Shown one piece after another: positions 222-58,222 of a DNA stretch of 64,000 nucleotides. Positions within the stretch are counted from its first letter, which is position 1. Each line of letters begins with the position of its first letter. Position numbers and translations under genes: made by a program. This DNA is from Malania oleifera (taxonomy: Eukaryota > Streptophyta > Magnoliopsida > Santalales > Ximeniaceae): contig NC_080422.1 in the NCBI RefSeq assembly GCF_029873635.1, positions 18,196,049 through 18,260,048 on the forward strand, read 5' to 3'. The notes under the pieces were generated by a model. The model was not told where the DNA came from. It saw nothing but the letters and a program-made list of their open reading frames with translations, and did not search any database.

Positions 222-475
222 TGTCGACGACATTGCATTTTGGAGATAATATTAATAATAATAATTTCAAGAAATTACCAGAATTCGTCGACAAATACAG
301 GGGTTCATCGACGAGTGCATAAGGAAATTCATCGACAAATACAGGGGTTCGTCGATGAGAAAATACCGAGAAACAGATTTGGGCTACTCTAAATTTCGTC
401 AATGAATATAGGGTTTCGTTGACAAATTTAATGAAGGACTCGTCGATGAGGTGACGTGTCTCGTCAACGAATTTG
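222..475 (+). promoter_or_regulatory. GTCGAC palindrome cluster in gypsy LTR
   Basis: About nine variants of TTCGTCGACGAA occur in 250 bp, for example at 222, 284, 304, 328 and 348. The copy at 348 is followed by AAAATACCGAG. The cluster lies upstream of the TATA-like and CT-rich part of the LTR, so it occupies the position expected for U3 promoter elements. That role is inferred. Confidence 0.7.
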
Positions 476-974
476 GCCCTATAAGTAGAGAAAAATCATA
501 TTTTTATCACATTTCAGCACCTCTCTCTCTCTCCTCTCACTCTCCTACGTCCCCTCCCTCTTCTCTCTTCGATTCTGGCCTCATTAGGCGCTGGATTGAT
601 GATCTGAGGTCACCACGACGCTCCTAGCGAAGTTCTCTACAAGTCTTCCAGAGCGGATCGTTGGTGAAACGTGGTTGGATTTTATCCCAAATTCAGGGTA
701 AGGCGTTTTAGTCTATTTTTGACCTTATAACAGTTATAGGAAATGATGTAAGCGAAGAACTACTGATATTTAGTTCTAGAAAATGTTGTTTTTAGGGTGT
801 TATGTAAGAAGCCCTGCGGGTATTAGGCTAGTATCCCGTAGGGTCTTTCCAATAATCAAGTAAGAGAAATATGCTATGCTAGGTATTTTTAAAATATTAT
901 ACAGTTTATTAAATTATGAAAATTATGTATTAAAGTATGGTGTGGCTTGTGAATATGAATATAGTACGGAGATA

Positions 975-1165
975 TGTTTTACGATATTTCAGTATCCAGA
1001 TTTTACAATATTTCAGTATCTTGATTTTACAATATTTCAATACCATGATTTTATGAATCTCAATACCATAATTATACAAATATCAGTATTATGATTATGC
1101 AGTTTCGGTGTTACGATTATACAGTTCTCAGTATTATGACGTATGAATTACAGTACAGTTTATGT
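975..1165 (+). repeat. Degenerate ~25-bp tandem repeats inside gypsy LTR
   Basis: Units resembling ATTTCAGTATCTTGATTTTA recur about seven times with drift in sequence and length. They lie in the downstream half of the LTR. A comparable AT-rich array of CATTTC-type units occupies the same part of the minus-strand gypsy LTR near 25350-25800. Confidence 0.6.
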
Positions 1166-2135
1166 AGTATCATGGTTATTACGGTTATTTCAGAATCATG
1201 GTAAATCAGATAGTTGTATATAGAGACATATTATATAGTATCAGACCCTGTTGGACTATGCAGTTACAGAGTACGGTACCATTGCTACAGATATTATGTT
1301 ATGTTATAAGTGCAACCACCTATTTAGATAATACGTGGTAGTAGGTCGATCACCTAGGCCCTTGAGGTGGGCAGGCTCCCCATCAGATATGGGTTGAGAT
1401 GGGCAGATCAAACCAATGGAGTATAGTGATTTATTCCTGGTTAGCCAGCCAGGATAAATCCCGCCTACGGGTCGCACAACCCTGTCATGAGGCGTTAAAT
1501 CATGACACACAGTTATCCACATGGAAAGTTTTCAGTTACTATTACGTATGTACAGATTTACAGAAATAGAGAATATACTTATGTATAATAGAAGTATTTT
1601 GAATAGTAACCTACGATACTATTATGTTAAGCAACATGAAAAGGGGGTGAATTTATTACTTATACTATACTTACATATTCAATTTTACATGTTTATATGA
1701 AAATGGATTTTCTTTATATTGTAGCTCATTTTCCACACACTAGTAATAGCATATTTCGTCTTACTGAGTGTTGGCTCATCCCAGTGTTGAATCATTTTTC
1801 AGGTGATCCAAGTAGGCGAGCAGACCAGACTCGCAGATCGAGGGGCTTCTGTAATGCCCTGTCAGTGAAGTGAGTATTTTGAAAGAATTTTTGTATATCC
1901 TAGTATAGTTGAGGGTATTTTGGGAAAATAGATATATGTGTATATTTTGGGGAAACATGGTAGTACTCTGGTATTGGTATTGTATATATATATGTACAAA
2001 TGAAAATGTTTATGTGATTTATGCTTCTCGCTGCTTAGGTTAATGATTGGGTTTATTCCCAGAACGGTATTAGAGCATGTTATATGTAATATTATAAATA
2101 AATAAAAAATATAGTTAATTAAGCACGTCATTACA

Positions 2136-4340: not shown

Positions 4341-4369
4341 ATACCTCCGTCTAAGAGCAATCTGTTTGC

Positions 4370-4834: not shown

Positions 4835-4849
4835 ATTCCTCTGCTATCC

Positions 4850-5831: not shown

Positions 5832-6119
5832 CTTGTAACCAAGAAACACACTTAAGCACCTTATCTCCTACACAGACCTATCCTATATCAATTCAAAATT
5901 AACTACCTTCCTTGACCTTAACTCAATATCCAGTTCTGTCACCTAGACACACGACCCGACAATAGTTTACTATGGTTTCCTGAAATCGTCACCCCAGGAA
6001 AAACACTTAAACCACCACGGAAAATTCTGTACCCAGACAACCGAACAAACTTCAAATCTTTTCCTATACTCTGGTATTGCATCCGCTACACTCTAAAGTC
6101 TACAAAACCTAGTAACCTA

Positions 6120-6135: not shown

Positions 6136-7913
6136 TGTAACAACCTACTATTTATTTTCCAGCTCTGTTTTTTTTTTTTTTTTTACACTATGAAATTTAT
6201 AATGCTCAAATACGTACTAGATTAAACAAAACCATCAACCTAAGTAGTGATAAGTGGAATTCATATAAACACAATCAATAAAATATACAATACCAGAGTG
6301 CTAAAATGTTCCCAAAATATACATATACGATTGTTTCCCAAAATACCCTCAACTGAGTAATTTTCCTAAAATACTCACTCTATTGACAAGCCTGAATTAT
6401 AACCTCCTCTATCTGCGAGCTTGATCTGCTCGCCTAGCTGGATCACCTAAAAAATATTAATTTAATGGGATGAGACGACGCTCAGTAAGATAAAATATGC
6501 TATTGCTAGTGTGTGGCAAATGAGTACAATACTATGAAAATTTGTTTCTATGTAATCATGTATAACTGAATCTGTAAATATAGTACAAATAATATAAACC
6601 ACCACCCTTTTCCATGTTGCTTAACATATCTATATTTTAGGTTTCTATACATAATACTTTTAATATATATACGTAGATTCCTTGTTTCTGTAAAACTATA
6701 TATACATAATAATAACTGAAAACTTCCCTAGATGGATAATTGTATGTTATGATTTAACCTCTCATGACAGGGTTGTGTGACCCGTACGCGGAATCTATCT
6801 TGGTTGGCCAACCAGGATAAACAACTATACTCCGTCAGTCTGATCAGCCCTCCTCAACCTATATCTGATGGGAAGCTTGTCCATTTATAGGTATGCGATC
6901 GACCTACCTACCACGTATTATCTGAATAGGTGGTTCCACTCTATATTGTATATAGTTACGGTACCGTACTCTATAAACTGTATCTGTAATGGTCCATCAG
7001 GGTCTAATACTATATAATACATCTCTATATACAACTATCTATTTTACCATGTTTCTGTAATAACTGTATTAACCATATAGTAAATTGTATCTATATCAAC
7101 TGTATTTCTGAAATCAACTGTAAATTTGTATGTCATGATATAGTAAACTATATAATCATGGTATTCTGTAATTTTTGTAAAATATATTCACTGTCTATAT
7201 ATTCTGTAAAACATAACTCTGAAAAATACTGTAAAGCATGTTTTGGTACTATATTTATATTCTCAAGCCGCACAGTAATTTAAAACATATTATTCATAAT
7301 TGATAAACTGTATAAAGTTCAGCTGTGAATAATAACCTGGTAAAAATATACATTTCATACTGAAAATCATTCTAGAACTGCCTAGCATAGCATATTTCTC
7401 TTACCTGATTTCTGCTAAAATCCCCCTACTGTGACGGGTCCTACACCCGTAGGGTTCTCCACTTAGATCGTCGATAACGGGGCCGAAATCGAAGAGAGAG
7501 AAGGGAAAGACCGTAGAGAGAGAAAATAGAGGGTTTCAGTGAGTTTTCTTCACAAGAAAATGAGTTTAGCACTATTTATACTGCGGCCTTCGTCGACGAG
7601 GTCACGAAGAAGGTTCGTTGACAAACACCAACTTCTCATCGACAAAATTCAGAGCTTAGAAGACAACCTCTCGATATCTTCTCATCAACGAAACTTGTCT
7701 TTGTCGACGAGGTCCACTTGTACCCTTGTCGACAAATCCCTTATGTTCATCGACGAGGACCTGATAAATTTTCTTGGGTCATTACATCCCAAAGTGTAAT
7801 GTCGTCGACAAACATGAAGCATTCGTTGACGAAGTCTGCTGCCTCCTTCTGTTTCTGTTTCCATTTTCCTCTCTCTTTATTATTTAAATACCATTATTCT
7901 TCGGGTCGTTACA
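6136..7913 (-). mobile_element. 5' LTR of minus-strand gypsy element
   Basis: It is bounded by TGTAACAACC on the left and GGGTCGTTACA on the right; on the minus strand it begins TGTAACGACCCGAAGAATAA, the same start as the solo LTR at 16346. Length is about 1.8 kb. It contains the block with ACCCGTACGCGG and GGCCAACCAGGATAAAC near 6780-6830, shared by the gypsy LTRs of this window, and a GTCGAC cluster at 7589-7835. Confidence 0.85.
7589..7835 (-). promoter_or_regulatory. GTCGAC palindrome cluster in gypsy LTR
   Basis: Variants include TTCGTCGACGAGG (7589), TTGTCGACGAGG (7701) and GTCGTCGACAAAC (7801). At 7669-7690 the words CTCTCGATATCTT and CTCATCAACGAA form, on the minus strand, the same pairing of palindrome and GATATCGAG that other LTRs show. 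The position is the U3 side of the minus-strand LTR. Confidence 0.7.
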
Positions 7914-8597: not shown

Positions 8598-8636
<39 letters not shown>

Positions 8637-10664
8637 GCTGTGTAATTGGTTTATAATAGTTAATTAGGGTCTTTGGTTTGTAATAAGCTCACACACATCA
8701 CATGCATGGTATAATATGTAAGCTCAAACCAAGTATAACTAAAATAACCTTAGAAAGACCTTAAGGGTTACCTTTCGGTCGACCGACACCAGATTTTTTT
8801 CATGTCTTCAAAAGGACCCAGGAATGACCCTAGGACACTCACCTTTGCACTCATAAATGTTAGACACTTGATTAAGGTGTTTGTGATTCAAAAGAAGACT
8901 GAAATGCACATTTTGTGCACTTTCGGTCGACTAACCTAGGCAATTCATTCTGCCCCGGTCGACCGAACCTCCTAGGAGTCAAACATTTAACTACCAGATC
9001 GACCGAGCCAAAATTGCACACCAACTACTTGGTCGATCGAGGGTTCTCGGGAGAAATCCCAACAATTTGGTCAACCGAATCGCCCAGCTCAAAATGTCCT
9101 GATCAACCGAACCTCGGTAAAATTGAAAAATCATCTCGGACATGCACTTACGGTCGACCGAGTCCTAAGTTCAAAAATGTCCTAGTCGATCGAGCTATAT
9201 GAACTTCGGTCGACCGAAATGGTTCTGGTCGACCGGGCCTCTCGGGTTGCCCTGAATTTTTTACCATGGTTAATTTTTTAAAACAGGGTTAAAATAATTA
9301 AAAGGTCATTAATCTTTTCTAATAATACCAGACTTGTCCCCAACGGTCATAATTCATGGGGTGTCTATATATACCCCTTCATTTGGAAAAATTAGATGGG
9401 ATTAGAAACTTTGATTAGGAGAGATTCTTTGAAATTTCCAAAACCTATAATACTCATATCTAAGCCCCAACCACTCATACGTACCTTCTCTTATTGCTCA
9501 AACTCTCTGTAAGTTGATTGAGTGCTTGATTAGAAAGGTTTGCTCTCCCATTCTAATTAGATTGATTCAATTTTAACAAGAGCTAAATCAGAGTATTCTT
9601 AAGGGGCTTTGTTCATAAGCATATCCTAAGAAGACTTGCTTAAGATTCTGAGTATTGCATTTGTGTTGCAATATCTTAGGAAGCTTGTATTTCTCTTTAG
9701 GTTGCAAAATCATTTTCAAAACATACTCAAATATCTTGTGTGATTTATATTGATATATCTGTGAGAAGATATTTGTGTTTGTAACATAAATCTTTGTTGC
9801 AATATCTATTTGCATATCATTTGCTGAATACAAAGACTATACATATTTTGCAAACCGAGCATATACGTCATATACTATTTACGTGATTGATATATCCCTC
9901 AGACTGATACATTTGAAACTTGCTTGACATATTTGTGTGAATCTGTTGATTGAATATCTTATGATACAAAGATTGCTTGTTGATACTCTCACGCACTTAT
10001 TACACTGATAGAAAAGGCATTTGAGAGTTGAAATACTAGACCACACTGAGCTTACAAATTAAATCATTTGTGGTGTATGTGACTGAGCGCATTCAAGTAC
10101 ATATCTGCTTTACATGAAAGCACAATCATTGTACCGTTTCATTAATTGAGCAAAATTATTGTATACCAGGCACGGGCCTAAAGAGAGAGACTAGCCCTTT
10201 GAAATAGTCCCGTATTGGCTTAGACCCAGTTAGGAAAGTTAGGTGCATCATCCTGTTAAGGCGTGTAGGTTAAGGTCAGCCCCGCTAATTGACTTGGTTG
10301 TAAAGGTTGAGGTCAGCCCTGTGCTAATTGACCTGATTGTAATTAGAGCCTCTCCACTCTTAAGTGAGCCTTTAGTAGAATCATTGGGCTTGCGAGTTAG
10401 AGGAGAGGACATAGGCACAGTTGACTAAACCCCGATAACATATCGTGTATTTATTTATATTTTTGCACTTTATATTTACCGCACGTATATGTTTTGGTGT
10501 GAATGATGCGCATAATCTAAATTTTTGTATATTATATTTATTGGCGCATTAGAGATTGGTTAGAAAGACCCTTGGTTGTCATATTCTGACTTAACCTAGG
10601 AGAAAAGTTTAAAATCCAATTCACCCTCCCCCCCCCCCCTCTTGGGAATACACCAATTCTAACA
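8446..10664 (+). mobile_element. 5' LTR of copia-like element
   Basis: It begins TGTTGACCTTATAGGTCACG and ends ACACCAATTCTAACA just before the primer-binding site. It is 2219 bp long. It contains a (TA)n run near 8601-8632, the GGTCGACCGA array (8777-9240), a TATA-box-like TCTATATATACCCC (about 9365) and a C-run near 10626-10639. The TATA position implies the palindrome array lies in U3. Confidence 0.85.
8777..9240 (+). promoter_or_regulatory. GGTCGACCGA interspersed palindrome array
   Basis: About eleven copies of GGTCGACCGA and close variants are spaced 25-60 bp apart, for example at 8777, 8957, 9150, 9206 and 9224. Each is followed by non-repeated spacer. The array ends about 120 bp upstream of a TATA-like sequence. 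The second LTR has the same array (15890-16310 and 18564-18660) with some extra units. A role in binding a factor or in DNA methylation is inferred only. Confidence 0.7.
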
Positions 10665-10679
10665 ATTGGTATCAGAGCC
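10665..10679 (+). other. Primer-binding site of copia-like element
   Basis: ATTGGTATCAGAGCC follows the LTR end directly and matches the 3' end of initiator tRNA-Met, the commonest primer of plant copia elements. Confidence 0.9.
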
Positions 10680-15755: not shown

Positions 15756-16419
15756 GCTGTGTAATTGGTCTGTAATAGTTAATTAGGGTCTTTCGTTTGT
15801 AATAAGCTCACACACATCACATGCATGGTATAATACGTAAGCTCAAACTAGGTATAACTAAAATGACCTTAGAAAGACCTTATGGGTTACCCTTCAGTCA
15901 ATCGACACCGGATTTTTTCAGTGTCTTCAAAAGGACCTAGGAATGACCCTAAGACACTCACCTTTGCACTCATAAATGTTAGGAACTTGATTAAGGTGTT
16001 TGTGATTCAAAATAGGACTGAAATGCACACTTTGTGTACTTTCGGTTGACTGACCTAGGCAGTTCATTCTGCCCCGGTCAGCAGAACCGATCTGGGTCAA
16101 CTAGTTGACCACAGCCCGATCGACCGAATCAGATTAGTTCAAAAACACCCGGTCGACCGAACCTCCTAGGAGTCAAACATTTGATTACTTGGTCGACCAA
16201 ACCAAAATTGTACACCAACTACCTAGTCGACCGAGGGTCCTTGGGAGAAATCTCATCAGTTTGGTCAACCGAATCGCCCAGTTCAAAATGTCCTGATCGA
16301 CCGAACCTCGGTAAAATTGAAAAATCACCTCGAACATGCATTTACTGTAACGACCCGAAGAATAATGGCATTTAAATAATAAAAGAAAGGGAAATGGAAA
16401 CCGGAAACAGAAGGAGGCA

Positions 16420-16670
16420 GTCGACTTCGTCGACGAAAGCTAATTTTGGAAAGGATAAATCCTAGGAATCTTTCAGCTTCTCGTCAACGAATATAGGGGT
16501 TCGTCAACGAAAATATAATTGGGCTTGTCGATGAAAATATAATTGGGCTTGTCGACGAGGAAATACCAAGGGGATGATTTTGGGGTTTCTAAATTTCATC
16601 GACGAAGGGGAGAGTTCGTCGACGAATTGTGTATTGACCTCGTCGACGAGGTGACATCGCTTGTCGACAA
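16420..16670 (+). promoter_or_regulatory. GTCGAC palindrome cluster in gypsy solo LTR
   Basis: Copies include TTCGTCGACGAAAG (about 16425), TTCGTCGACGAATT (about 16615) and CTCGTCGACGAGG (about 16638). GTCGACGAGGAAATACCAAG at 16551-16570 shows the linked GATACC-like word. A TTTAAATAGG TATA-like box follows at about 16681. Confidence 0.75.
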
Positions 16671-17304
16671 AGGCCACAGTTTAAATAGGCTTAAAGTTCA
16701 TTTTTGGACGAAATTTTCTAAGAAGAGTTTCTCTCTCTCTTACCCTTCGGTTTCTCCACCTTCTCTCTTTGATTTAGGACTGGATTTCTGTCAGTTCAAC
16801 GATCTGAAGCCGCCACGACGCTCCTGTGAAAGTTATCTACAAGTCTGCCGGAGCAGATCGTCAGTAGAGCTGAGTTGGAAACCATCCCAAATCCAGGGTA
16901 AGGTTTTCTACTCAGTATTTGGTTATTTAATAGTTGTAGAAAGTGATATACGCATAGAAATACTAAGGTTTAGTACTGGGAGTTTTCATTTCCAGGGTAT
17001 TGAACGGGGAACCTTGCAAGTGCGGGATAGATTTTTCGTAGGGGCTTTTTAAGAATCAGGTAAGGGGATAAACTAAGCTTGAGAAATGTATGTATATATA
17101 GCATTTGATTTCAGGAAAGTACATAAGTTCATATATATATGATTTATATTTGATAAACACTGTTGAAAATTATGGTATGTTAAATATGTGAAAAACCTGT
17201 TAGTGTGGCATGAGTAAAAATTGTTATGAAATACTGTTTTCTAGGAATGTGTGATTATGATATGGATTTTTATAATGGAAAAACGGTTTATGGGCCGAGA
17301 TTTT

Positions 17305-17565
17305 TATATATTTTACCGGTGTATGATCCGTGCTATGTGTATGATTTGCCAGCGTACGGGCTGAGCTATGGATATTTTGCCGGCATACGGGCCATGCTAT
17401 GAATGTGATTTGCCAGTGTACGGGTTGTGCTACGATATGATTTTCCGGCGTACATGCCGAGCTATGGATGTGATTTGCCAGCGTACAGGTTGTGTTATGA
17501 TTTTCCGGCGTATGGTCCGAGCTATGATAAAATGTGAAATACCAGCGTACGGGCCGATGATTTTT
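17305..17565 (+). repeat. Minisatellite of ~27-37 bp units in solo LTR
   Basis: About eight units resemble TTTGCCAGCGTACGGGCCGA followed by GCTATGA and a variable spacer. The unit is more GC-rich than the surrounding LTR. This array is not seen in the other gypsy LTRs of the window. Confidence 0.7.
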
Positions 17566-20083
17566 CATGACATACATATATATATGCAAAATGATATGAT
17601 TGATTTGATAATTAATGATATGAGATATCTATGTATCACAATTTCAGTATATGTTATATGATATCAGAACCTAATTGGATTAGTCTAGGCTAACACTTGC
17701 ACGGTACCGTTGCTATATGTCCATGGTCTTCGTGATCATGATATTTGTGTTGACATCGTTGTACGGAGTGGTGTGAGATTGGATGGTCGATGTGGTTTTT
17801 AAGAAGTGTGTGTGATCGCCCCTAGTGTACGGACCAGGTCAGGCAGACCTGGCCATCAGACTTACAAACTATACTTTTGACTTGGCAGTGGTCAGCTAAC
17901 CATTGTCAGGTCCCACCTTCGGGCCACACAACCCAGTCATGTGGGTGTAATACACGACAACAGGCAACTAACCTACTAGGAATGTTTTGTAGTATTATAA
18001 TATGAGATGAAATATGTTTATGAAAATGCAATATGTTCTACCATGTTTATATATATATATATATATATATGTTCTCCCATATTTGATATAACAGTTACTG
18101 ATTATGTTCTATATGGTATATGTATAACACAGAATACTCATGATGCCACACACTGATATTAGTTTATTTCCCTTACTGGGAGGTGTCTCACTCCAAAATT
18201 TTATAAACTTTTCAGGAGCCCCAAATAGGAGAGCGAGAAAAGCCCCGTTGATCTAGAGCTGTAGATCTGCCCTTCTAGAAGGGTAAGTATTTTGATAGGG
18301 TCGGATGTATTTTGTGAAAATGGCCTTAAGACATCTTTTGGGGTTGAGTGTTGCATATATATATATACGATTATTGTAGTAACTCTGGTATTGTGATGTA
18401 TAGTATAATGAGATGTATAAGATTGTATATTTCCTACTGCTTAGGCTTCTGCTATACGTTTTGATGTATCCCTAGTACCCACGGGTCCAGGTGGATTATG
18501 ATCTGCTGAGATTTATGTTGTTAATTTTATTTAAAAAATGTGGAAATTAAGTAGGTCGTCACATTTACAGTCGACCGAGTCCCAAGTTCAAAAATGTCCT
18601 AGTCGACCGAGCCATATGAACTTCGGTCGATCGAATTGCTTCTGGTTGACCGGGCCTCTCGAGTTGCCCTAAATTTTTTACCATGGTTAATTTTTTAAAA
18701 TAGGTTTAAAATAATTAAAAGGTCATTAATCTTTTCTAATAATACTAGACTTGTCCCCAACGGTCATAATTCATGGGGTGTCTATATATACCCCTTCATT
18801 TGGAAAAATTAGATGGGATTAGCCACTTTGATTAGGAGAGATTTTCTGAAATTCCCAAAACCTATAATACTCATATCTAAGCCCCAACTACTCATACTTA
18901 CCTTCTTTTATTGCTCAAACTCTCTGTAAGTTGATTGAGTGCTTGATTAGAAAGGTTTGATCTCCCATTCTAATTAGATTGATTCGATTTTAACGGGAGC
19001 TAAACCGGAGTATTCTTAGGGGGCTTTGTTCATAAGCCTATCCTAAGAAGACTTGCTTAAGCTTCTGAGTATTGCATTTGTGTTGCAATATCTTAGGAAG
19101 CTTGTATTTCTCTTTGGGTTGCAAAATTATTTTCAAAACATACTCAAATATCTTGTGTGATTTATATTGATATATTTGTGAAAAGATATTTGTCTTTGTA
19201 ACATGGATCTTTGTTGCAATATCTATTCGCATATCATTTGGTGAATACAAAGACTATACATCTTTTGCAAATCGAGCATATACGTAATATACTATTTACG
19301 TGATTGATATATCCCTCAGACTGATCCATTTGAAACTTGCTTGACATCTTTGTGTGAATCTGTTGATTGAATATCTTGTGATACAAAGATTGTTTTTTGA
19401 TACTCTCACGCACTTATTACACTGATAGAAAATGCATTTGAGAGTTGAAATACTAGATCACACTGAGCTTACATATTAAATAATCTGTGGTGTATGTGAC
19501 TGAGCGCATTTAGGTACATATCTGCTTTACATGAAAGCACAATCACTGTACCGTTTCATTGATTGAGTAAAACTGTTGTATACCAGGCACAGGGCACAGG
19601 CCTGAAAAGGGAGACTAGCCCTTTGAAATAGTCTCAAATTGGCTTAGATCCAGTTAGGAAAGCTAGGTGCGCCATCCTGTTAAGGCGTGTAGGTTGAGGT
19701 CAGCTCCGCTAATTGACCTGGTTGTAAAGGTTGAGGTCAGCCCTGTGCTAATTGACTTGGTTGTAATCGGTGCTGCTCCACCCTTGAGTGAGCCTTTAGT
19801 GGAATCCTCGGGCTTGCAAGCTAGAGGTAGGGACATAGGCATAATTGGCCGAACCCCGATAACATATCGTGTATTTATTTATATTTTCGCACTTTATATT
19901 TTCTGCACGTATATGTTTTGGTGTGAATGATGTGCATAATCTAAATTTCTGTATATTATATTTATCGGTGCATTAGAGATTGCTTAGAAAGACCCTAAGT
20001 TGTAATATTCTGACTTAACCTAGGAGAAAAGTTTAAAATTCCAATTCACCCCCTCCCCTCTTGGGAATACACCAATTCTAACA

Positions 20084-26480: not shown

Positions 26481-27846
26481 TGTTGGCTTGGTAGTATGTC
26501 TAGAGGGGGGGTGAATAGACTTTCTTCCGTGATGTGCTCACTTTCTACAAACACAAAAATCTTACCAAGAGCAAGTGTATAAAATTGCCATGTAAAAAGA
26601 AATGTAGAAAATCATGATAATAATATAAATGAGATATGAGAGAAGAAAAGCTTAACACAAAGATATTTACATGGTTCGGCACCCAGCCTATGCCCACGCC
26701 TTGAGACCAACTCAAGGATTCCCAAAATCCACTATAATCCTCCTTAGGACAGAGAAGCCAATACACACCAGCTCACAAAGAGCTTCAACAAGGTGCTCAC
26801 TTAGAGACACCCAAAAACAGCTCACCAAGAGCCTTTGTTTACAAAAGGTAGATGAAAATTAAATGTAAGCTTGAATACTCCCTTTGAGGTAATTAAACCA
26901 ATAAAATCCTTACTCAATATCCTCTTGTCACTGGAGTAAATGTAAGACTAAGAGCAGCAAGAAGAGGGCAAGTGAGTTTGTAAGCGAATCCTAGAAATAA
27001 CAACACCAATGAATGATCTTCTTATAATATAATTTTTCTAGGTGATGAAGTAAATGCTATTTACTCCTATTTATACACTAAATAGGCGAGTGCAACACTG
27101 GAGAGCCGTTGGGCATTTATGAATGTAAGACAAGATTCAAAATAGTCGTTCTGCAGCATTTAATGTTCGCTGCTGCCCAACGTTCGTCGACGAAGCCCTG
27201 TGTTCGTCAACGAGCTCTTCAGTAACTTCGTCGACGAAGCCCTGTGTTCGTCAATGAGTTGCTAGTTCTGAATTCAGGGACCTCTCGGTATCTTTTAGTC
27301 GACAAGACCATGTGTTCGTCGACGAGTTCTTCATTCCATTCGTCGATGAGTTATGGCTCTGAATTCAGTTACCCCTCGGTATCTTTTCGTCGAGGAGAAC
27401 CTTGTGTTCGTCGACGAAGTTTGTTCTACACTCGTCGACGAAGCCCTGTGTTCGTCGACGAGATCCTTCTTCTTAAAATTTTGTCCTTTAAGTTTCAAGA
27501 AGGTTCTTGTCCGTTTGGGGGTTTCTTTACACACTTTCAAATGACTTTACTAGTATTTTATTGTGTGTGTGTGTGATACGCCTCTTTCTTGCTCTTAGTA
27601 TTGAGTTTCACTCTATGTACAAGATGTTTACAAGATGATATCTCTCTTATTTACACACTCATTTTTCAGATGACTTTGTACATTTGTGTATCGCCCATAA
27701 ATGCTTTGAGAGACTTGTGCTTCTGGTCATGGCATGAGTTGCTTTGACTGTTTGCTGGTTCAGATGTCATTCTGTATACTTGGAACATGTCTTAGAGAAA
27801 CGTTAGTGACCTTAAGAGCAGCTAATGGGTTGTTAGCATCAAAACA
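26481..27846 (-). mobile_element. Copia-like LTR inserted in gypsy LTR
   Basis: The left side (TGTTGGCTTGGTAG, then AGAGGGGGGGTGAATAG) is the reverse complement of a copia-type LTR end, and the right side GTTAGCATCAAAACA the reverse of a TGTTTTGATG start. The segment with ACATGGTTCGGCACCC (26669) and CACGCCTTGAGACC parallels 37130-37180. No internal region is attached. I did not find a convincing target duplication, so its exact ends carry a few bases of doubt. Confidence 0.65.
27180..27465 (-). promoter_or_regulatory. GTCGAC palindrome cluster in copia-like LTR
   Basis: Nine or more copies occur, for example ACTTCGTCGACGAAGCCC (about 27227), TGTTCGTCGACGAG (27312) and CTCGTCGACGAAGCC (27431). 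Two places (27281-27303 and 27374-27396) show CTCGGTATCTTTT next to the palindrome, the reverse complement of the GATACCGAG word in gypsy LTRs. Confidence 0.75.
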
Positions 27847-27899
27847 TAGTAGGAATGAAAGACCTCTAACTATTTGGTCTAATAAAGGCTATAGGGTTT

Positions 27900-28017: not shown

Positions 28018-28140
28018 GACGAAACCGTCGATGATTTTCTGCACCCCCGCAAAACCGTCGACGATTTGGATTTTTAACCCGCTCTTTTTACCGTTTTACC
28101 TGTAACTGGCCTGTAGTAATTACAAAACCGTCAACAGTTT
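28018..28140 (-). promoter_or_regulatory. AACCGTCGACGATTT variant cluster in gypsy LTR
   Basis: Three spaced copies (GAAACCGTCGATGATTTTC, AAAACCGTCGACGATTTGG, AAAACCGTCAACAGTTTTT) have an A/T-flanked version of the palindrome. The first and third are followed by GCACCCC/GCGCCCC-like words. The position is U3 of the minus-strand LTR. Confidence 0.6.
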
Positions 28141-37948: not shown

Positions 37949-38122
37949 TCGTCGACAAGTGGCTATCATTCGTCGACGAGTGGCTTGCATTCATTGACGA
38001 GTCACCTGGGCTGAAATATACATTTAGCTACTGACTTTGCTTCGTTGATGACTCAATATCACTCGTCGATGAGTCAGCCCCTTTTGTTGATGAGTCACCC
38101 TCATTCGTCGACAACTGGTATG
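37949..38122 (-). promoter_or_regulatory. GTCGAC palindrome cluster in copia-like LTR
   Basis: Copies include GAGTCGTCGACAAGTGG, ATTCGTCGACGAGTGG, CTCGTCGATGAGTC and ATTCGTCGACAACTGG. Each is followed by TGGC or TCA-type spacers. Two further variants continue beyond the inserted element at 43673-43712. Confidence 0.65.
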
Positions 38123-38155: not shown

Positions 38156-38497
38156 TGTTAGGACCCTATGAGCAACCAGAAAATTATGAACACCAGAAAT
38201 TTTGGTCAAGATCGACCTACATCCACGGAGCACACAACAAATTCACTAAAATTGCCGGAAAAATACAACTCTCTTCTTCCTCTCACTCTCGCTCTCTGTA
38301 CCCTCTCTTGTGCATCTCACAACTCTATAACTCCTCTATTTATAGGGCTTGGCATTAATTACAATTAAATATAATGAATCAAAAAAATAGAAGTTTCATC
38401 CACTTAAATTAAATGGTGGATAACAGCTCCAGCTTGCAACGTGTCTCCAGCTCCTCACGCGTCTCTAGCTCAGTGTCTCCTGACTCCAGCTACAACA
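38156..38497 (-). repeat. 3' LTR of copia element
   Basis: A 342-bp LTR with TGTTAGGACCCTATGAG at one end and CCAGCTACAACA at the other. It contains a TTTATAGGGCTTGGCATTAA stretch shared with the partner LTR. Confidence 0.85.
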
Positions 38498-38630
38498 ATC
38501 TCCCACTTGGAGACAGAGACGCCTTCTCAACCAGTATCATGAATAAATGATGTACTCAAAATATGTCTTCAGGCATGAAGACCAACTGAAGTTGAACACA
38601 ACTTCAGCTTCTCTGTAGTCACCACCTTAG

Positions 38631-41600
38631 TTAACATATCTGCTGGATTTCTGCTACCTTGGATTTTTTCTCAAGTGTCAACACGCCGTCTTCTATCAGA
38701 GATCTGACAAAGTGATAGCGCAATCCAATATGTTTAGTTCTGGAATGAAATGCGGAGTTCTTTGCCAGATGTATCGCACTCTGACTATCACTGTACAAAA
38801 CATTCCTCTCCTGCTTTAATCCAAGCTTCGTTAACAAACCTAGAAATCAAATCATCTCTTTACTGGCTTCTGTCACTGCTACATACTCAGCTTCTGTAGT
38901 GGATTGTACAACAATCTTCTGTATCTATGACATCCAACTAAAAGCTATTGTGCCAACAGTGAATATATACTCGATGGTGCTTCTACGATGATTAATTTCA
39001 CCTACAAAATCAGCATCTACAAATCCTTGGATTTTCAAATCTCTTTTTCCGAAACATAGGCACTTATCAATAGTGCCACGTAAATATCTCAAAATCCACT
39101 TCACTACTTCCCAGTGTGTCTTCCCTGGATTTGACATATACCCTGCTGACAGCTCCCATTACTTGGCCAATATCCAATCTGGTACCAACCATAGCATACA
39201 TTAGACTTCCAACAGTTGAGGCGTATGGTACCTTAGCCATGAAGTCTTTCTCTTCATCTGTCTAGGGAGAATGATCCTTTGAGAGATGGAAGTGACCTTC
39301 CAATGGTGTATTTACTGCCTTGACGCTGCTCATGTTGAACCTCTGTAAAACACGGCTGATGTATTCTGACTAAGATAACTGCAATGTGTCTTATTGCTTA
39401 TCTCTAGAGATCAGCATCCCAAGAATCAGCTTTGCAGGACCCAAGTATTTCATATCAAATTCCTCTAACAATTACTGTTTCAATTTTCTGATCTCTTGTA
39501 TATCAAATCCTGCGACTAGCATATCATCAACATATAACAGTAGAATAATATAGCTAGTACGATGCCTTTTGAAGTAGCAACAGTGGTCGACATTGCACTT
39601 CTGAAAATTGTTTCTCTACATACAGTTGTCGAATTTCTTGTACCACTGTCTAGGAGCTTGTTTGAGACCATACAAACTATTTTTCAATTTGCATACAAGA
39701 TTCTCTTTACCTTTTACTGAGAAACCTTCTGACTGTTACATATAAATTTCCTCATCAAGATCACTGTGAAGAAATGTCGTCTTCACGTCCAACTGCTCAA
39801 GATGCAAACCCTCTGAGGCAACAATACTTAACACAGATATGATGGTTGTCAGTTTGACAACTGGTGCAAAAATATCAGTATAGTCAATTCCTTCCTTCTG
39901 TTCAAAACCTTTGACTACTAACCAAGATTTATACCTTTTGGGTCCATCATGCTCTTCTTTGATCTTGTATACCCATTTGTTGTGAGGAGTCTTCTTACCA
40001 TTGGGCAACTTAGCTAGTTCCCATGTTTTTTTGGAGTTAAGAGACTTCATCTCGTCTTTCATTGCAAGCTCCCACTTGCTCGAATCTCCTGCCTGACATG
40101 CTTCAACTTAGCTTTTAGGTTCTCCTCCATCTGTAAGAAGTAAATGGTTCACATACCTCATGTTTGGTATATGTTGTCAAGAAGATCTCCTAAGCTCTAG
40201 TGCTGGAGTAGAAGGTGGTGGTGCAACAATCTGCTCCACATGTTCCTCTGCCTGAGGAATCTCGGTATTCAACTGAGAATTCTCAGTGTTTTGCTGACGT
40301 GTCCTTACACCTTCTAAAACATCATCCACATCTACAAAGGTTATTTTAGACTCTGTAGATTTTGTTGTGTGTCTATCTTTGTACATCACATTTTCATCAC
40401 AAATCACATCTCTGCTTCTAATCATATTTTTGTTTTCAACATCCCAAATGTGATATCCATATTCATCTCCACCATAATTGACGAAAGTGCATTTTCGGGA
40501 TTTCAAATCCATCTTATTCCTGACATGATCATTGATATGTACATATGCAATACAACCAAAAACTTTCAAATATGAAAGTTTTACCTCTTTGTTACTCCAA
40601 ACATCTTCTGGTAGACTATAGTCCAATGGTACTGATGGACTCCTGTTAATTAAATAAGTTGTTGTGTTGATTGCTTCTACCCAAAACATCTTTGGCAAGC
40701 CTGACTGCATACGCATGCTTCTAACTTTTTCCATCAACGTTCTGTTTATCTGCTTATCTATGCCGTTGTGTTGAGGCGTACCTGGTACAGTTCTTTCCAT
40801 TCTGATACTATGCTCATAGCAGAATTTCTTAAACTTGGTGTCAACATACTCACCACCGTTATCTGTTCTCAGCTTCTTGATTTTCAAACCAGTTTCGTTT
40901 TCTACCATTACTTTCCAAATTTTAAAAACATCAAAAACATCATATTTATATTTCAGGAAGTAAACTCATACCTTCCGTGAATGATCATCGATAAATGTGA
41001 CGAAGTAATGCTTTCCACCTGTGGACGAAATGGTTGTTGGTCCCCATACATCTGAATGGACTAGCTCAAGTCTCTCATTCTTTGGGGTACTGTTGTTTGT
41101 CTAGAAACTAACTCTCTTCTATTTTCCAAATATGCAATTCTTACATGTGTCAATCTTCACCGACTGTAAATCACTCAACTTACCCTTTGAGTGCATCACC
41201 CTGAGTCCCTTCTCACTCAGGTGTCCGAGTCGTTGATGCCAAAAGTTGCTATCATCATTTCCTATAGCAACTATAATAGACATGCATACATCAGGAGTTA
41301 CATAAAGAGTACCACTTTTCTTACCTCAAGCAATTGTTAATGCACCCTTCAAAATCTTCCATTCATCACCAATGAAGGTTGTGTTATATCCTTCATCTAC
41401 TAGTTGACCGATTGAGATCAAATTCTTCCTCAGGTCTAGAATATACCTGACATCTCTCAGTTTCCATACTAACCCATTCATTTTGATCTTCACTGTCCCC
41501 TTACCAGCAATGTCGCAAGGTTGATCATTGCCCATATATACTTTACTGAAATTACCTAATGTATACTCTAGGCAATCTCTGCTGCAAGTGGCATGGAATG

Positions 41601-41658
41601 AAGCTCTAGAGTCTAACATCCAAGACTCCTTTTTGCTCTCCAAAGAGCAGATCAACAA
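38631..41658 (-). pseudogene. copia pol remnant (protease, integrase, RT, RNase H)
   Basis: Recognisable pieces from 5' to 3' of the element are a protease-type region (41326-41658, with SWMLDSRASFHAT and KNLISIGQLVDEGY), integrase (40177-41200, with LRTDNGGEYVD, GTPQHNGI and KVFGCIAYVH), reverse transcriptase (39400-40062, with KTWELAKLPNGKK and LDVKTTFLHSDLDEEIYM) and RNase H (38631-39137, with SDSQSAIHLAKN and RTKHIGLRYHFVR). The polyprotein order is integrase before RT, diagnostic of Ty1/copia. It is an old copy, broken in many places. Confidence 0.85.
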
Positions 41659-41729
41659 ATCATCATTTTCCGAAGTAACATTTGCTTCTGTCTTTGCCCT
41701 CGTCTCGTATTCTTTCTTCTGACTTCTGC

Positions 41730-42489
41730 ACTGGTTCTTGTAATGACCAGTTTTTAAACAACACTCGATAATTTTTTTGCTCTGGGAACATGTGTCTTAA
41801 GAACCTCTGGGATTTCTAGATTTAGATCACCTGGGCCTAGATCTGCCGCGATTGTTTGATCGTCCATGCCTGTTTCCTCTGCCTTGACTTTCCATACTCA
41901 AGGCTAAGCTCGAAGTGGAACCATGGTTTGACTGCATTTTAATTTCCTCTGTCAAAATCATGCTGACGACCTCATCGTATACAAGTTTTGATTTCTCTAC
42001 GGAGCTACTGATCACGGTAACAACGTCATTCCAACTTTCAGGAAACTGATTGAGAATCGGTAGGGCACAAATCTAATTATCAAATGTTATCTCGACTGAG
42101 GCGAGTTAATCCGACAACTCGTTGAAATTATTCAAATATCTGCTAAAACTTTCACCTACAAACATGCTCATAGTAAATAGTCTTTTCATGAGATGTACCT
42201 TGTTAGCAATTGACGGCTGCTCATACATATTAGAAAGTGCATCCATCAGAGATGTGGTGGATGATATATGCTTGATATTGAATGTCACAGACTTTGACAA
42301 CGTCATTTTGATGGCTTCGAGAGCTTTTCAATCAAGCAACTCCCACTCTTCCTCGTTCATAGATGTTGGCTTACCCTTCAATGGTAAGCGTAACTCCTTC
42401 CCAAACAAATAATCTTCCATCTGCATCTTCAAGAAACCAAAATTGTTGTTGTTGAACATTTCGATTTTTGAGCTCTTTTCATTCGACAT
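41730..42489 (-). pseudogene. copia gag remnant
   Basis: Starting near 42489 the minus strand encodes a plant copia gag: an N-terminus with FNNNNFGFLKMQMEDYLF, then MDALSNMYEQPSIANKVHLM and MSMFVGESFSRYLNNFNELS, an RGRG-type basic stretch (41830-41880) and a zinc-knuckle area near 41735-41770. It stands between the leader and the protease region. It is broken. Confidence 0.8.
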
Positions 42490-42664
42490 CTTGATTTGCT
42501 GATCTAGATATGGAATTAGCTCAAATGGATAGCATGGTTGGATCCGTAATGGTCAAAAACCTTAGAAATGGTTCAAATCATTCAAAAAATGGACCCAAAA
42601 CAACTCCGAAAAACTCGGTCAAAGTTTAGGTCAAACTTAGTCAAACTGGTCAATGCTATCGTGG

Positions 42665-42905
42665 TTGTGCTGACGTGGCCTGCTAACATGGCAGGATGCT
42701 AACGTGGCCTGCTGACATGTCAGGACGCTAACATGGCTTGCTGCCATGGCACTATGGGCCCACTACTGACGTGGCATTGTGGGGCCCACTACTGACGTGG
42801 CATTGTGGGGCCCACTACTGACGTGGCATTTTGGGACCCACTTGCTGGCGTGGCAGCTAGCATGGCACTATGGGGGCGCAGATGACGTGGTAGATGACGT
42901 GGCTG
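42665..42905 (-). repeat. TGACGTGGC / GGGCCCAC repeat array in copia leader
   Basis: Between the LTR and gag lies an array of TGACGTGG words (about 42671, 42767, 42793, 42820, 42883 and 42895) mixed with GGGGCCCACTAC. Three units of 26-27 bp stand in perfect tandem at 42757-42835, and looser CTAACATGGC variants surround them. ACGT-core words resemble plant bZIP sites and GGGCCCAC resembles TCP sites. That these are bound is only an inference. Confidence 0.75.
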
Positions 42906-43302
42906 GGTGCAAAGCAATCCGGATACTGATTCGGGTCAGGTGTGGACCGGGTCTTGGGTTGGTCCGGTCTGAGTGAGTATTCGGGTCAGGTCGACGGGTT
43001 GGAGTCGGGTTGCCGAGTCGGGCTAAGGCGGTTTGGGCGAGGAAGACGCATGGGCATGCGTGTGGCGCGTGAGCGACAGGTCACCGGCGCGTGACAAGGC
43101 GTCCTGCTCCGTCTAGGCGCATGGTGGCACGTGTAGCTTCATCTGAGATCCTTTCGAGCTCCGGCTTGCACGGTTAGCTTCGTCTCGGCGAGGTGAAGGT
43201 GATGGTGGCCTCAAAAATCAATTTCAAACCACTAGACAGAGCTCTGATTTCGATGAACACTCCGATCTGGCCTTTTTGCTCCAACCGGTCTCTAATACCA
43301 CT

Positions 43303-43667
43303 TGTTAGGACCTTGTGAGCAACCAGAAAATTATGAACACCAGAAATTTACGTGGTTCGATCAAGATCAACGTACGTCCCCGGAGCATACCACAAATTCA
43401 CTAAAACCGCCGAAAAAATACAATTCTCTTCTTCCTCTCACTCTCTTCCTCCTCTCTTTATTCTCTTTGCTTTCTGTACCCTCTCTTGTGCATCTCACAA
43501 CTTCACAACTCCTCTATTTATAGGGCTTGGAATTAATTACAATTAAATATAACAAATCAAAAAAAGAGAAGTTTCATCCATTTAAATTAAATGTGGATAA
43601 ATGGCAGATAATAGCTCCATCTTGCAACGCATCTCCAACTCAGCATCTCCTAACTCTAGCTACAACA
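43303..43667 (-). repeat. 5' LTR of copia element
   Basis: A 365-bp LTR matching 38156-38497, with TACGTGGTTCGATCAAG near its left end (plus-strand view) and GCTACAACA at the right. It lies next to the primer-binding site. Confidence 0.85.
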
Positions 43668-49391: not shown

Positions 49392-49880
49392 GGTATTGGT
49401 ATAGGGTAGCAGCTCACACTCGTTGACGAGGAGATACCAAGAGTAAGGAAATCTCAAAGTTCAAAGACTCATCGACGAATGGATAAAATCGTTGATGAGT
49501 GACCTTCTTTGACTCGTCGACGAGTGTCCTGTTCTCGTCAACGAGTGGTCGCTGGGTTGCGAAAAAGAATTTAAATTTTGAATTTGAACGTTGGAGTTGT
49601 TAGGTATTCGAAAGGAAATCTTCGAGGCGTTGTTATATATGTCATTATGTGCATATTTCAACATATAAGAGAGTAAAAGAGAGGGTGAGAGAAGGAGAGA
49701 AGATCATTGTATTGTGAGACTTTGATTTTTATAGTGAATCTCTTGCCGATTGCTCTCGTGGATGTAGGATTTTTCAAACCACGTAATTCTTGGTGTCATT
49801 ACACTTATCTTTATTCTCTTTATCTTGCTATGGTTGTGGAATGTTTTTTGTTTATCACCATTTTATTTGTTGCAAGTATG
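49392..49880 (+). mobile_element. Copia-like LTR remnant
   Basis: The segment has a GTCGAC cluster (49419-49550), a CTCTCGTGGATGTAGG block and CAAACCACGTAATTCTTGG (49748-49790), the usual R/U5 layout of plant copia LTRs, then TTATCTTTATTCTC. It is cut at 49880 by the Athila-type LTR, so its end lies beyond that insertion. GTATG (49876-49880) would be the left target duplication. The left boundary is approximate. Confidence 0.6.
49419..49550 (+). promoter_or_regulatory. GTCGAC palindrome cluster in copia-like LTR
   Basis: Copies include CTCGTTGACGAGGAGATACC (49419-49438), CTCATCGACGAATGG, CTCGTCGACGAGTGTCC and CTCGTCAACGAGTGG. The first is joined to GATACCAAGAG, the same pair as in gypsy LTRs. 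Confidence 0.75.
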
Positions 49881-54995: not shown

Positions 54996-55031
<36 letters not shown>

Positions 55032-55856
55032 CTTCTTTCTCTTTTTATTTCCTTTCCTTTTCTTTAGTTTTTTTTATTCTTGCTTTAAATATTTAAATGA
55101 ATATTGTTATTTTTCAATTGAGTTTTAGTTAAATTTTTAAACTTGTGAATCTTTGTTTGAGTATTATTATTATTAAAGCTTATTTATTTTCTTTCTCTTT
55201 CTTATTTAATATAAGCATTAGATATAATTTTATGCCTAGGTTAATTTTTATTTAATTAAAGTTCGGTTTGATCTTTAGAAAGAAAAAAAAGAGAGAATAA
55301 AGTAGAAAAAATAAAAAAAAAATTATAGAAAAAATTAAAAAAATTATTTTTAGAAGTTAAATTAGTTGTTTTCTTTAAATCAAAATTTTATTTGTTGAAG
55401 TTTGATTTAGTTTAAGCTTAACCTTATTAAAATCCGAGTTCTTTTTATCTTATTTCTGTATACTGTTTAGTTGCAAAAGTTTTGAATTTTGTTTAAGTTC
55501 TTAATCACATTAAAATTGGTTTTTGTTTAAATTTGTGATTGATTGAGTTCTTTTTAGGATTGCATGTTTTCATTACGTATTAAAATTATCGTCTTCAATT
55601 CTTTTTTCTGAAGTTCAACACGTGTTTCAATTCTTGTTCGGTTGTTAAATTCAGTGCATGTTAAGAATTAGAATTTAAATTACATGTTTGTTTAATTTAT
55701 CAAAACAAATCTCAAACATCCTGAAAAACATGAATCTGAACTGTGTTTAATGCTATTTTGTTTCTCACTTGCGGATTGGAACTATGTAAAATTTGAGATT
55801 AAACTGCATTCCCTGAGGAGACGATCTAGCTTTTGAGCTAAATATTATACGACATA
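53970..55856 (+). mobile_element. 3' LTR of Athila-type element
   Basis: It begins TGATTACATGCTTAAACTAC and follows the solo LTR 20317-22181 through TCCGAGCTCTGATCGAGACG, a CT-rich region (54420-55030, with a (CT)n run at 54999-55030) and CCCTGAGGAGACGATCTAGC. It stops at 55856, where a gypsy LTR begins, so its last part is displaced beyond the window. Confidence 0.85.
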
Positions 55857-56220
55857 TGTAATAGCTCACAGAATTAAATAAGGCCTTGTCGACGAACACA
55901 GGGGATTCGTCGATGAGACTACATAAGGACCTCATCAACAAGGATATGTCTCGTCGATGAGAAGATACCAAGAGGGGGGCTTTAGCAGTCTGAAATTCGT
56001 CGACGAAGGTTCAGGTTCATCGATGAACTTTCTATAGGGGCTCGTTGACGAGATGACGTGTCTCATCGATGAATTCGGGGTTATAAATAGCTAAAACCCA
56101 GATTTTCTGCAGAATTAAGTGCTAGAAACACACACCCTCTCTTGAAAATGTCCCTCCTCCCTTCTCTCTTCGATCCCAGCTCCGTTTCTCGTCAGCTCGA
56201 CGATCTGAGACCACCACGAA
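55857..56220 (+). mobile_element. 5' part of a gypsy-type LTR
   Basis: It starts TGTAATAGCTCACAGAATTA and has a GTCGAC cluster, TATAAATAGC (56082) and CTTCGATCCCAGCTCCG, CTCGACGATCTGAGACC, CCACGA, as in the other Tekay-like LTRs. It is cut at 56220 by the next gypsy element; the rest must lie right of the window. Confidence 0.75.
55886..56080 (+). promoter_or_regulatory. GTCGAC palindrome cluster in gypsy LTR
   Basis: Copies include CTTGTCGACGAACAC, ATTCGTCGATGAGAC, ATTCGTCGACGAAGG and CTCATCGATGAATTC. TCGTCGATGAGAAGATACCA (55951-55970) is the clearest example of the palindrome joined to GATACCAAGAGG. The TATA-like box follows just after the cluster. Confidence 0.75.
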
Positions 56221-58222
56221 TGTAATGACCTGGCCCTTTATACGAACCAGCACCGTTAACCCAAATACAAAATACCTGTACCTGTTCAAGATACATAGAC
56301 AACCGGCCCTAAACAGGGACCTACGGGTATAAACCATACATAATTACAATGTAAATTTTACGGAAAAACATAAACATTCATCGGAATTTCTACTAGACTT
56401 ATATTAGAGCTTACTAATACATCCACAAGTACATAAATCCAAACATAGAATAGATCCTGTTATTACAATCCTCTAGAAAGGACCTTCATCCATGTTTAAT
56501 ACATCATTCGAATGCTTACGTAAGCTAAACCAAAATACAACCTCCACAGTCCCTTTAGCTACTAGGACCGATGTACTGATGGATCTGAAAAAAAAGATTG
56601 TATAATAGGGTGAGACACCTCTCAGTAAGGAAGAAAGTGTTAAAACGGTGTGTGACTGCATATATGCACATTTTTATACAAACTCATATGTTTGAAACAT
56701 TTGTTTATAATACTGTAACATATAACATTTATCTGCACATCAAGTATTTAAATCATGCATATGATTATTAGAACACCTCCATCTTGATATGACATTTTGC
56801 ATGTTTATCCCGTGGCATGGGTTGTGTACTGATTGCCTCTGACAGTGTCCTATTTGTGCAGACAAAGCCGAGCATCTTTTATAGTCTGACCGCCCCCTGG
56901 TTTATTTTTACCAGCAGCTTACTAACTCCTCGTAGGTCGACCATCTAACGTACCCATACTGATTTCTCATGTATGGTTGCACTGTACTGCCAGCATCGGT
57001 ACCTAGCCCTAGGAGCTTATTTCAACCCCCGAACTGTAGTATCTTTCAACCCCTTTTACTGAAGTTTCTTTCAACTTATTTTGGTCACAAGCTGTGGTTC
57101 CAGTATCATATATACAATTTATAGAAAAATATAGTAACCTGTGTAATTCCAGTATTTTTGCATATTCAAATAATCACATCAGGTTCAAACTGGTGCCTAT
57201 CCACTTAGTTTACCCCTTTTGTTTACTAATACAGCTCAGTGTATCATCAACCTCTGTTTTCCATATTCTCAGTATAATAAATTGGAACTTTGTTTCCATA
57301 TCTCATATATATGAAGTATAGAATGTTCATGCATTTCCATTTTAATATATATCATACAAGTTCAATCCAAAACCCACTAAATGATAAAAAGTTCAGTAAC
57401 CACCATTTAAATGGAGAAGTGAAAGATTTAAGTGACTCCTACTTCAGTTTAAATGCAAATAAGTGATTTTCATAAAATTTGGAGATCATACGCCAAAATC
57501 CTTGTTTTTACCAAGAATCGTAAAATTGTAAAACCGCCATTTCTACTCGGTAGAATTTAGAAAATAAGTAGTTAAATCATACATATAAATATAAACTAGC
57601 TTTTTAGCGGTTTAATTTTCAAAAAATGCTGTTATAATCAATTTCCCCTTACCTTAAACTCAAAACAAAATTTCGTACGAACACGATCCAAACCGACAAC
57701 CCGGGACCCTCAAAACCTAAAAACCACAGAACATAACCTTACTATAATTTTGCCTACTATCCAAATATCCAATCAAAATTGAGATCAGATCCTTACCTTG
57801 ATTTTTGGGAAAACCCAAAAATCCTCAAAACAACGATACGATCCGCTAAAAGTTGTAGAATTTCCTCCTCTGATCCCCGCAGGAACTTTCGTTTCTTAAA
57901 GAGAGAGAATTTCGTTGGTAGAGAGAAAGAGAGATTGGGAAGAAACTTAGCTTCTAAGCAACAAAAATGGATATTTATAGGGCCTTTGACCAAGTCCAAC
58001 TCGTCGACGAGGCAGCGTCTTCGTCTACAAATCCGCCACACAGCTCATCGACGAAGCCATCCCTACGTCGCTAAGCCCAAGTTTTGGATATTTCTCTGAC
58101 TCGCTCGGTATTTGATCGTCGACGAGGATCTAAATTTCGTCGACGAGGCTCTGAAGGACTTCGTCGACGAACTTGACTCCTTCGTCGACGAACCCAGCTT
58201 ATTTCGGGTTTGGGTCTCTACA
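56221..58222 (-). mobile_element. 3' LTR of Tekay-like element
   Basis: Bounded by TGTAATGACCTGGCC and GGGTTTGGGTCTCTACA, about 2.0 kb. The GTCGAC cluster is at 57998-58190. On the minus strand a donor-like AAGGTAAGGATC (near 57792) and an acceptor-like TTTTTTTCAGATCC (near 56590) recall the other gypsy LTRs. Confidence 0.85.
57998..58190 (-). promoter_or_regulatory. GTCGAC palindrome cluster in gypsy LTR
   Basis: Copies include CTCGTCGACGAGGC (58001), GATCGTCGACGAGG (58115), TTTCGTCGACGAGGC, CTTCGTCGACGAACTTG and CTTCGTCGACGAACCC. CTCGGTATTTGATCGTCGAC (58104-58123) is the palindrome joined to the GATACCGAG-like word, on the minus strand. Confidence 0.8.

Follow-up and report, generated by a model that had tools for sequence, protein, structure and literature searches.

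The promoters of long terminal repeats (LTRs) are usually thought to evolve within retrotransposon lineages. The closest described counterparts of the sequences considered here are the short palindromes of Sireviruses (Bousios et al. 2010, PMC2829016). Many copies of these crowd the upper LTR half and form CpG islands ahead of a TATA box. According to passages of that paper, the palindrome is particular to each element, nearly all of these motifs (all but one) have a CGG-CCG signature, and they are absent from "classic" retrotransposons. The present analysis concerns a palindromic decamer with a GTCGAC centre, TCGTCGACGA, in a window of 64,000 nucleotides from Malania oleifera (the whole stretch analysed: contig NC_080422.1, positions 18,196,049 to 18,260,048, forward strand, assembly GCF_029873635.1). 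Copies of this decamer form ordered arrays within LTR U3 regions, and the array is a module common to the gypsy and copia superfamilies. The explanation that we prefer, with a probability of about two in three, is that the module is a promoter-proximal activator for a host factor, and that it derives from one ancestral block exchanged between gypsy and copia elements.

Abundance and register of the palindrome

In the genome of 1,494,336,490 bases (510 contigs), exact matches to TCGTCGACGA occur at 132,361 places. Reversing the string leaves 1,383 places, and TCGACGTCGA, a control palindrome with the same letters and three CpGs, has 433. An extra sample, small and non-random, consisted of twenty 10-kb stretches from contigs C1-C9, each placed by hand at a round coordinate no further in than ~50 Mb, and in these TCGTCGACGA is the top palindromic decamer beyond those made only of A and T (12 exact matches). 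Chance or base composition as the source of the clusters is ruled out by the genome counts together with this rank, and the observation made by an earlier, sequence-only reading of the window is confirmed, in a stronger form than it was first stated.

With an array defined as at least three matches with neighbours no more than 100 bp apart, arrays were found in 8 of the 20 sampled stretches, and 44 of the 46 matches there with at most one mismatch fall within them. The window holds 19 exact matches, 48 with one mismatch and 80 with two, of which 18, 47 and 68, respectively, lie inside nine ranges that the sequence-only reading had listed as palindrome clusters in at least eight LTRs. Eight of the nine ranges pass the array rule. 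The ninth, 28018-28140, was rejected as a member of the module: it has two or three sites of the GTTGACGG/CGTCGACGG/CATCGACGG type, sparser and at wider spacing. The arrays and their hosts are as follows, where steps are palindrome-to-palindrome distances and the composite word is a palindrome joined to a GATACCRAG-like word.

A1, 221..470, plus strand: gypsy 3' LTR, within U3; composite word at 359-370 and TATA-like box at 480; steps 64-20-24-20-47-20-24-21
A2, 7590..7832, minus strand: gypsy-like LTR from 7913 (minus strand); composite word in the form ATATCGAG; TATA-like box 9 bp past the last palindrome
A3, 16427..16670, plus strand: solo gypsy-like LTR at 16346-18563 (TGTAACGACC...GGTCGTCACA); target duplication TTTAC
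A4, 27184..27461, minus strand: eleven palindromes and two composite words; Sirevirus-type copia solo LTR
Solo LTR of A4, 26481-27891 (~1.41 kb): target duplication TAGGGT or AGGGT; sits within the gypsy-like LTR-C
LTR-C, 28025..28130, minus strand: sparse GTTGACGG/CGTCGACGG/CATCGACGG sites; gypsy-like by its start at ~28215 (minus strand)
A5, 37949..38114, minus strand: 21-bp steps, no composite word; probable Sirevirus-like LTR, split by a copia insertion
A5, extra weak sites: 43672 and 43693
A6, 49420..49544, plus strand: composite word, then steps 49-20-25-21, the right half of the module; second copia LTR family
A7, 55886..56072, plus strand: full register 21-25-19-46-20-25-21; gypsy-like LTR starting at ~55857 and ending at 56220, where it is cut by the start of the LTR of the A8 element
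A8, 58001..58188, minus strand: 3' LTR (56221 to ~58222) of a gypsy element
A8 element pol, 59620..61215, minus strand: gypsy RVT_1, RNaseH and integrase zinc-binding domain
CGGTCGACCG flavour, 8776..9235, plus strand: Sirevirus-type LTR with a poly-C junction ahead of the primer site TGGTATCAGAG at 10667

The spacers between palindromes had been described as unrelated, but their lengths are locked and some of their sequences are conserved. Across 17 arrays (eight from the window and nine from the 10-kb stretches), 98 of 105 steps measure 19-22, 24-25 or 44-51 bp. A complete gypsy-like array consists of a pair (two palindromes 19-21 bp apart), a step of 24-25 bp, a second pair, a step of 46-47 bp, a third pair, another step of 24-25 bp and a final pair. 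The underlying unit is about 112 bp long, with palindromes at steps of ~20, 24, 20 and 47 bp, and it is present about 1.6 times in gypsy-like LTRs, about 2.6 times in the Sirevirus-type copia LTR (A4) and as a right half only in the second copia family (A6). Several arrays lack sites or contain a longer step, namely 64 bp in A1, 54 bp in A3 (which also has 24 replacing 20) and 71 bp in A8. Among the first 100 exact matches on contig C1, 53 neighbours lie no more than 140 bp apart, compared with 1.3 expected for a uniform distribution, and 42 of the 44 neighbour distances of up to 80 bp fall into the register classes (31% expected), these classes having been fixed after the step counts in the 17 arrays.

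Further regularities extend beyond the spacing. The decamer is preceded by a pyrimidine in 92 and followed by a purine in 89 of the 93 palindromes in 13 gypsy-like arrays, and the corresponding figures for A4-A6 are 19 and 21 of 22. The second word that the sequence-only reading had seen in seven LTRs was recovered in A1, A2, A3, A4 (twice), A6, A7 and A8, with A5 lacking it; more generally, in 10 of 14 gypsy-like arrays, and in A4 and A6 as well, the fourth palindrome is followed by ATACCRAG or by a word that differs from it at one position. In all 14 gypsy-like arrays a TATA-like box, as defined by a loose pattern, starts 9-23 bp past the last palindrome. A GRTGACRTGKC-like word was also observed in the last spacer of many gypsy-like arrays (A1 at 440-460, A7 at 56042-56062 and several sampled ones), and was not seen in the A4-, A5- or A6-type copia arrays that were written out.

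Host elements of the arrays

The gypsy assignment begins with the A8 element, in which RVT_1, RNaseH and an integrase zinc-binding domain are found with the integrase after the reverse transcriptase, the domain order of Ty3/gypsy elements. For the portion of its other LTR that the window includes, from 63332 on, the identity is 92% (674 aligned positions). The host LTR of A1 starts at 140, directly after a purine-rich tract, and the array begins 81 bp into it. In the 3.2 kb upstream of A1, RVT_1, RNaseH and SH3_Tf2-1 occur in that order and in the same orientation as the array, together with an Integrase_H2C2 match that scores below the curated cut-off. A2, A3, A7 and nine of ten sampled arrays are tied to the A1 and A8 hosts by flank similarity, either directly or stepwise; no such tie was found for the tenth, R10. 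The name Tekay, used for the gypsy-like hosts by the sequence-only reading, is a putative label that would fit the look of the reverse transcriptase and the LTR ends. An array outside the gypsy-like group was noticed at L010:188-375, with A4-like steps and a TATA-like box 100 bp on (minus strand).

The insert that carries A4 is a discrete repeat of ~1.4 kb with at least 43 genome matches from the 40 scored of 3,626 candidates, and among those scored there are five apparent pairs 5-7 kb apart. Four of the five pairs were sampled (L033-L036), and in all four the copia domain RVT_2 lies between the paired LTRs, with gag_pre-integrs and rve also present in two of the internal stretches (L034 and L036). 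At one A4-type junction (L030), a poly-C tract is followed by CAACA and then by the primer site TGGTATCAGAGC, features that have been published for Sireviruses; at two others (L031 and L032) the poly-C tract is present and no primer site was found in the stretch inspected. Palindromes number 12, 12 and 10 in three more A4-type LTRs. Their order is 20-24-21-47-20-24-20-48-20-24-20, apart from sites that have been lost, and the same grammar holds in all four including the window's own. The four thus have 10-12 palindromes, with a TATA-like box 105-108 bp on and a CpG observed/expected ratio of 1.66 in A4, and they resemble Sirevirus LTRs in bearing at least eight palindromes in the upper LTR half within a CpG island before the TATA box. 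They depart from the published motifs in their core, which is TCGTCGACGA and not of the CGG-CCG type.

These results uphold the claim of the sequence-only reading that the hosts belong to two superfamilies, with RVT_1 and RNaseH at A1 and A8 and RVT_2 between all four A4-type pairs. They also bear on the notion that no exchange took place, the supposed copia LTRs being in truth relatives of gypsy or mixtures produced by nesting. Nesting is indeed heavy, in that A4 lies within a gypsy-like LTR, A7 is cut at the point where the A8 element starts and A5 is split by a copia element. However, BLAST comparison of four A4-type with seven gypsy-like LTRs placed every match inside the array or no more than 22 bp beyond it, as expected if similarity is limited to the module. 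A single host lineage is therefore rejected, and for the A4 family, with its discrete ~1.4-kb repeats, copia reverse transcriptase between pairs and array-limited similarity, the notion is refuted; as a general account it is hardly tenable, although it might apply in part to A5 and R10.

The A6 family has at least 46 genome matches from the 40 scored of 3,248 candidates, and all six copies studied, including the window's own, show the composite word followed by 49-20-25-21 with small variations. Pfam searches gave no match in two fragments of this family, so its copia status rests on an exact primer site in one of the six copies (L041) and one tblastn copia match (L043); the internal stretch L044 was also without a protein match. 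A5 probably lies in a Sirevirus-like host, since its LTR end matches a Sirevirus-type junction with a score of 35, compared with 21 for the best of 500 shuffles. No internal domain was seen in the A5 host, and in a 1.5-kb stretch beside an A5-type match (L068) inspection by eye revealed no primer site, and neither a copia nor a gypsy match was obtained. At G000:C5:67052890-67063292, several matches to A5-type LTRs follow one another at intervals of 3-4 kb on a single strand and may represent a tandem cluster.

Some neighbouring features of the window deserve mention. The copia element that splits the A5 array (~38156-43667) has an integrase domain, LTRs that are 79% identical and, by eye, a TGATT target duplication. 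Near its 5' LTR, at 42668-42902, there are 29- and 26-bp tandem repeats rich in TGACGTGGC, possibly a regulatory array. Palindrome arrays of the CGGTCGACCG type, at 8776-9235, 16117-16300 and 18568-18650, belong to two copies of one Sirevirus-type LTR, and the solo gypsy-like LTR of A3 (16346-18563) is inserted into the second copy. An AT-rich block of mutually similar repeats adjoins LTR-C at 28216-29896. The content of the window is of plant type: LTR retrotransposons are numerous, and among them lie genes for a DUF2921 protein and a molybdate transporter. A search for tRNA in the window found none. A scan of viral contigs for pairs of exact palindromes at a distance of 19-25 bp found 22 stretches, each with a single place, but no array.

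Descent and convergence

The similarity between superfamilies within the module extends beyond the palindrome. When six gypsy arrays are set against two copia arrays, the identity of the first spacer is 0.72, compared with 0.28 after shuffling, and seven of nine in-register spacer comparisons between gypsy and copia reached p <=0.014. The composite word is identical at a mean of 10.96 of 15 positions between ten gypsy and five copia strings, a comparison that left out R9b, R12, R14a, R25 and the other copia copies. For the A6 type, BLAST against the gypsy-like LTRs found two short matches (from L040 only), both in the array.

The rival account is convergence, in which the families separately built arrays because one abundant host factor binds GTCGAC-centred sites. 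Such a factor would fit with the other GTCGAC flavours in the window, namely CGGTCGACCG in the Sirevirus-type LTR, the 21-bp steps of A5 and CGTCGACGG in LTR-C, and also with the published Sirevirus boxes, which according to passages of PMC2829016 vary by element but always have a symmetric core. One factor common to the families could account for the palindromes, but it would not be expected to produce the same register, the same first spacer and a composite word at the same place after the fourth palindrome in both gypsy and copia elements. Common descent of the block is therefore favoured over convergence, which we regard as unlikely. The sequence-only reading had offered exchange and convergence as alternatives of equal standing; exchange gains from the shared register, composite word and spacers, and convergence no longer stands level with it.

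Several observations weigh against the preferred explanation. Comparison of second with second spacer (p 0.068) and of the seventh (p 0.66) was no better than shuffled sequence, and for the later portion of the composite spacer sharing is not clear (0.336 vs 0.306, p 0.053). One of two out-of-register spacer controls reached 0.62, an effect of the word ACACAGGG, which is repeated within the array; the other control gave p 0.03. The composite word, allowing one mismatch, is absent from A5 and R10 and from four of the 14 gypsy-like arrays (R12, R13, R14a and R25), and the absence from these four slightly lowers our confidence. The A5 grammar is a different one, of 21-bp steps. Finally, the TATA-like box lies 89-108 bp past the last palindrome in A4, A5, A6 and R10, a promoter geometry that differs from that of the gypsy-like arrays, with a looser match at 47 bp in A5.

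In the preferred history, a block present in one ancestor would have been passed between gypsy and copia elements by sequence exchange. Template switching between co-packaged RNAs could bring this about, as could recombination between LTRs nested in one another; the many identical copies of the palindrome would offer potential crossover points. After transfer, the block would have grown or shrunk by whole units. If this account is correct, a register-locked block in gypsy elements, a Sirevirus and a second copia family would be a clear case of regulatory DNA transfer between retrotransposon superfamilies, and its sharing could help to explain the expansion of several lineages in one genome. 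A bolder version, possible if rather doubtful, is that the ~112-bp block behaves as a "parasite of parasites" that moves horizontally between gypsy and copia elements, multiplies by units and plugs its hosts into the same factor; tens of thousands of LTRs would then form one coordinated regulon.

Possible function and relation to known systems

An activator array for a host factor is suggested by the position of the arrays, their CpG density and the pairing of sites two helical turns apart. Each palindrome would be a two-fold site for a putative host DNA-binding factor, and paired sites about two helical turns apart would act on the downstream TATA box. Lineages that lost the array would presumably cease replicating. 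With more than 130,000 exact palindromes, a single host factor could control much of the genome's retrotransposons as well as nearby genes.

The pattern of decay bears on whether the array works instead by escaping methylation. Among 122 palindromes, 111 of 126 substitutions are CpG transitions, and the palindrome's own letters T1, T4, A7 and A10 hardly vary, which is most simply read as decay, in the manner of methylated CpGs, from ancestral copies that were perfect palindromes and had three CpGs each. Palindromic CpGs have decayed by 0.209 compared with 0.188 at other CpGs of the same LTRs in the A4 type (four copies), and by 0.30 compared with 0.212 in the A6 type (six copies). This indirect measure gives no sign that the array is protected from methylation. 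Since the genomic copies show no such protection, conservation would appear to act on the replicating copies. An anti-silencing array, whose repeats recruit a demethylating factor as the VANC target motifs of VANDAL transposons do, would account for dense arrays of short motifs with a CpG observed/expected ratio of 1.24-2.06 in 16 arrays compared with 0.55 in the 200-kb sample of stretches. There is also a precedent in parts of PMC5735166, where VANC motifs build up through the formation of tandem repeats and VANC6 motifs occur in an unrelated repeat as well. Nevertheless, the preponderance of CpG transitions, and the finding that palindromic CpGs decay no more slowly than their neighbours, weaken this reading and make it very improbable.

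Alternatively, the array might act as RNA or single-stranded DNA, with the complementary palindromes forming hairpins for packaging or for small RNAs. Three array segments do fold better than dinucleotide shuffles (z -2.67, -2.64 and -2.40), and an excess of small RNAs is described, in passages of PMC10760457, as mapping to the palindrome clusters of maize Sireviruses. Stable folding is trivial for any repeated palindrome, however, and a promoter role is suggested by how closely the arrays of gypsy-like LTRs precede a TATA-like box, so that we consider a hairpin function quite unlikely.

As to the nature of the factor, GTCGAC fits RYCGAC on both strands and the gypsy arrays A1 and A7 end with TGACGTGTC, which we take to be an ABRE-like word; on these grounds a cold- or drought-linked factor is a lead, although a somewhat unlikely one. 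RYCGAC is listed as a barley CRT/CBF motif in a portion of PMC4482647, and part of PMC11656987 associates DREB1D sites with plant LTRs. The DREB/CBF link made here is a sequence match only, and the barley CBF assignment of RYCGAC comes from a motif database, which is a further point on the debit side. The array resembles the stress-type elements of PMC11656987 in its fit to RYCGAC, and differs in that such an array is not described in the portion of that paper considered.

The sequence-only reading had not seen the module described. That holds in part: Sirevirus CpG boxes before the TATA box are already published (PMC2829016, in the passages cited above), while apparent novelty is confined to the block as a shared unit and to its presence in gypsy LTRs and in the second copia family. 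In open-licence PMC papers no report was found that joins TCGTCGACGA with "retrotransposon", and no palindrome block common to gypsy and copia LTRs appears among the matches listed, as judged by titles and the starts of abstracts. Two papers, PMC4635225 and PMC12071766, contain the six letters GTCGAC once each, in primers.

Among described systems, the VANC target arrays of Arabidopsis VANDALs are similar in that a short motif is amplified in noncoding tandem arrays and recognised at density; as far as the excerpted text of PMC5735166 goes, they are unlike the present module in being non-palindromic, in the same orientation, bound by a transposon-encoded protein and accompanied by loss of methylation, whereas the decay of the module shows no such protection. 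Another case is the maize Sirevirus palindrome, which is also found in Helitrons and is the top structured-region motif in two transposon superfamilies (PMC10760457, sections on these motifs). There the second group consists of DNA transposons and not of gypsy LTRs, and neither a common register nor a higher-order block is described in those sections. The nearest system is that of the Sirevirus motifs themselves: A4 lies in such an LTR, with many palindromes before the TATA box, and the Vitis Sirevirus palindrome CGGTCGACCG, given in the cited passages of PMC2829016, has a GTCGAC core and occurs as the same sequence in the window. What sets the present module apart from them is that one palindrome, one register and one composite word are common to gypsy LTRs and a second copia family.

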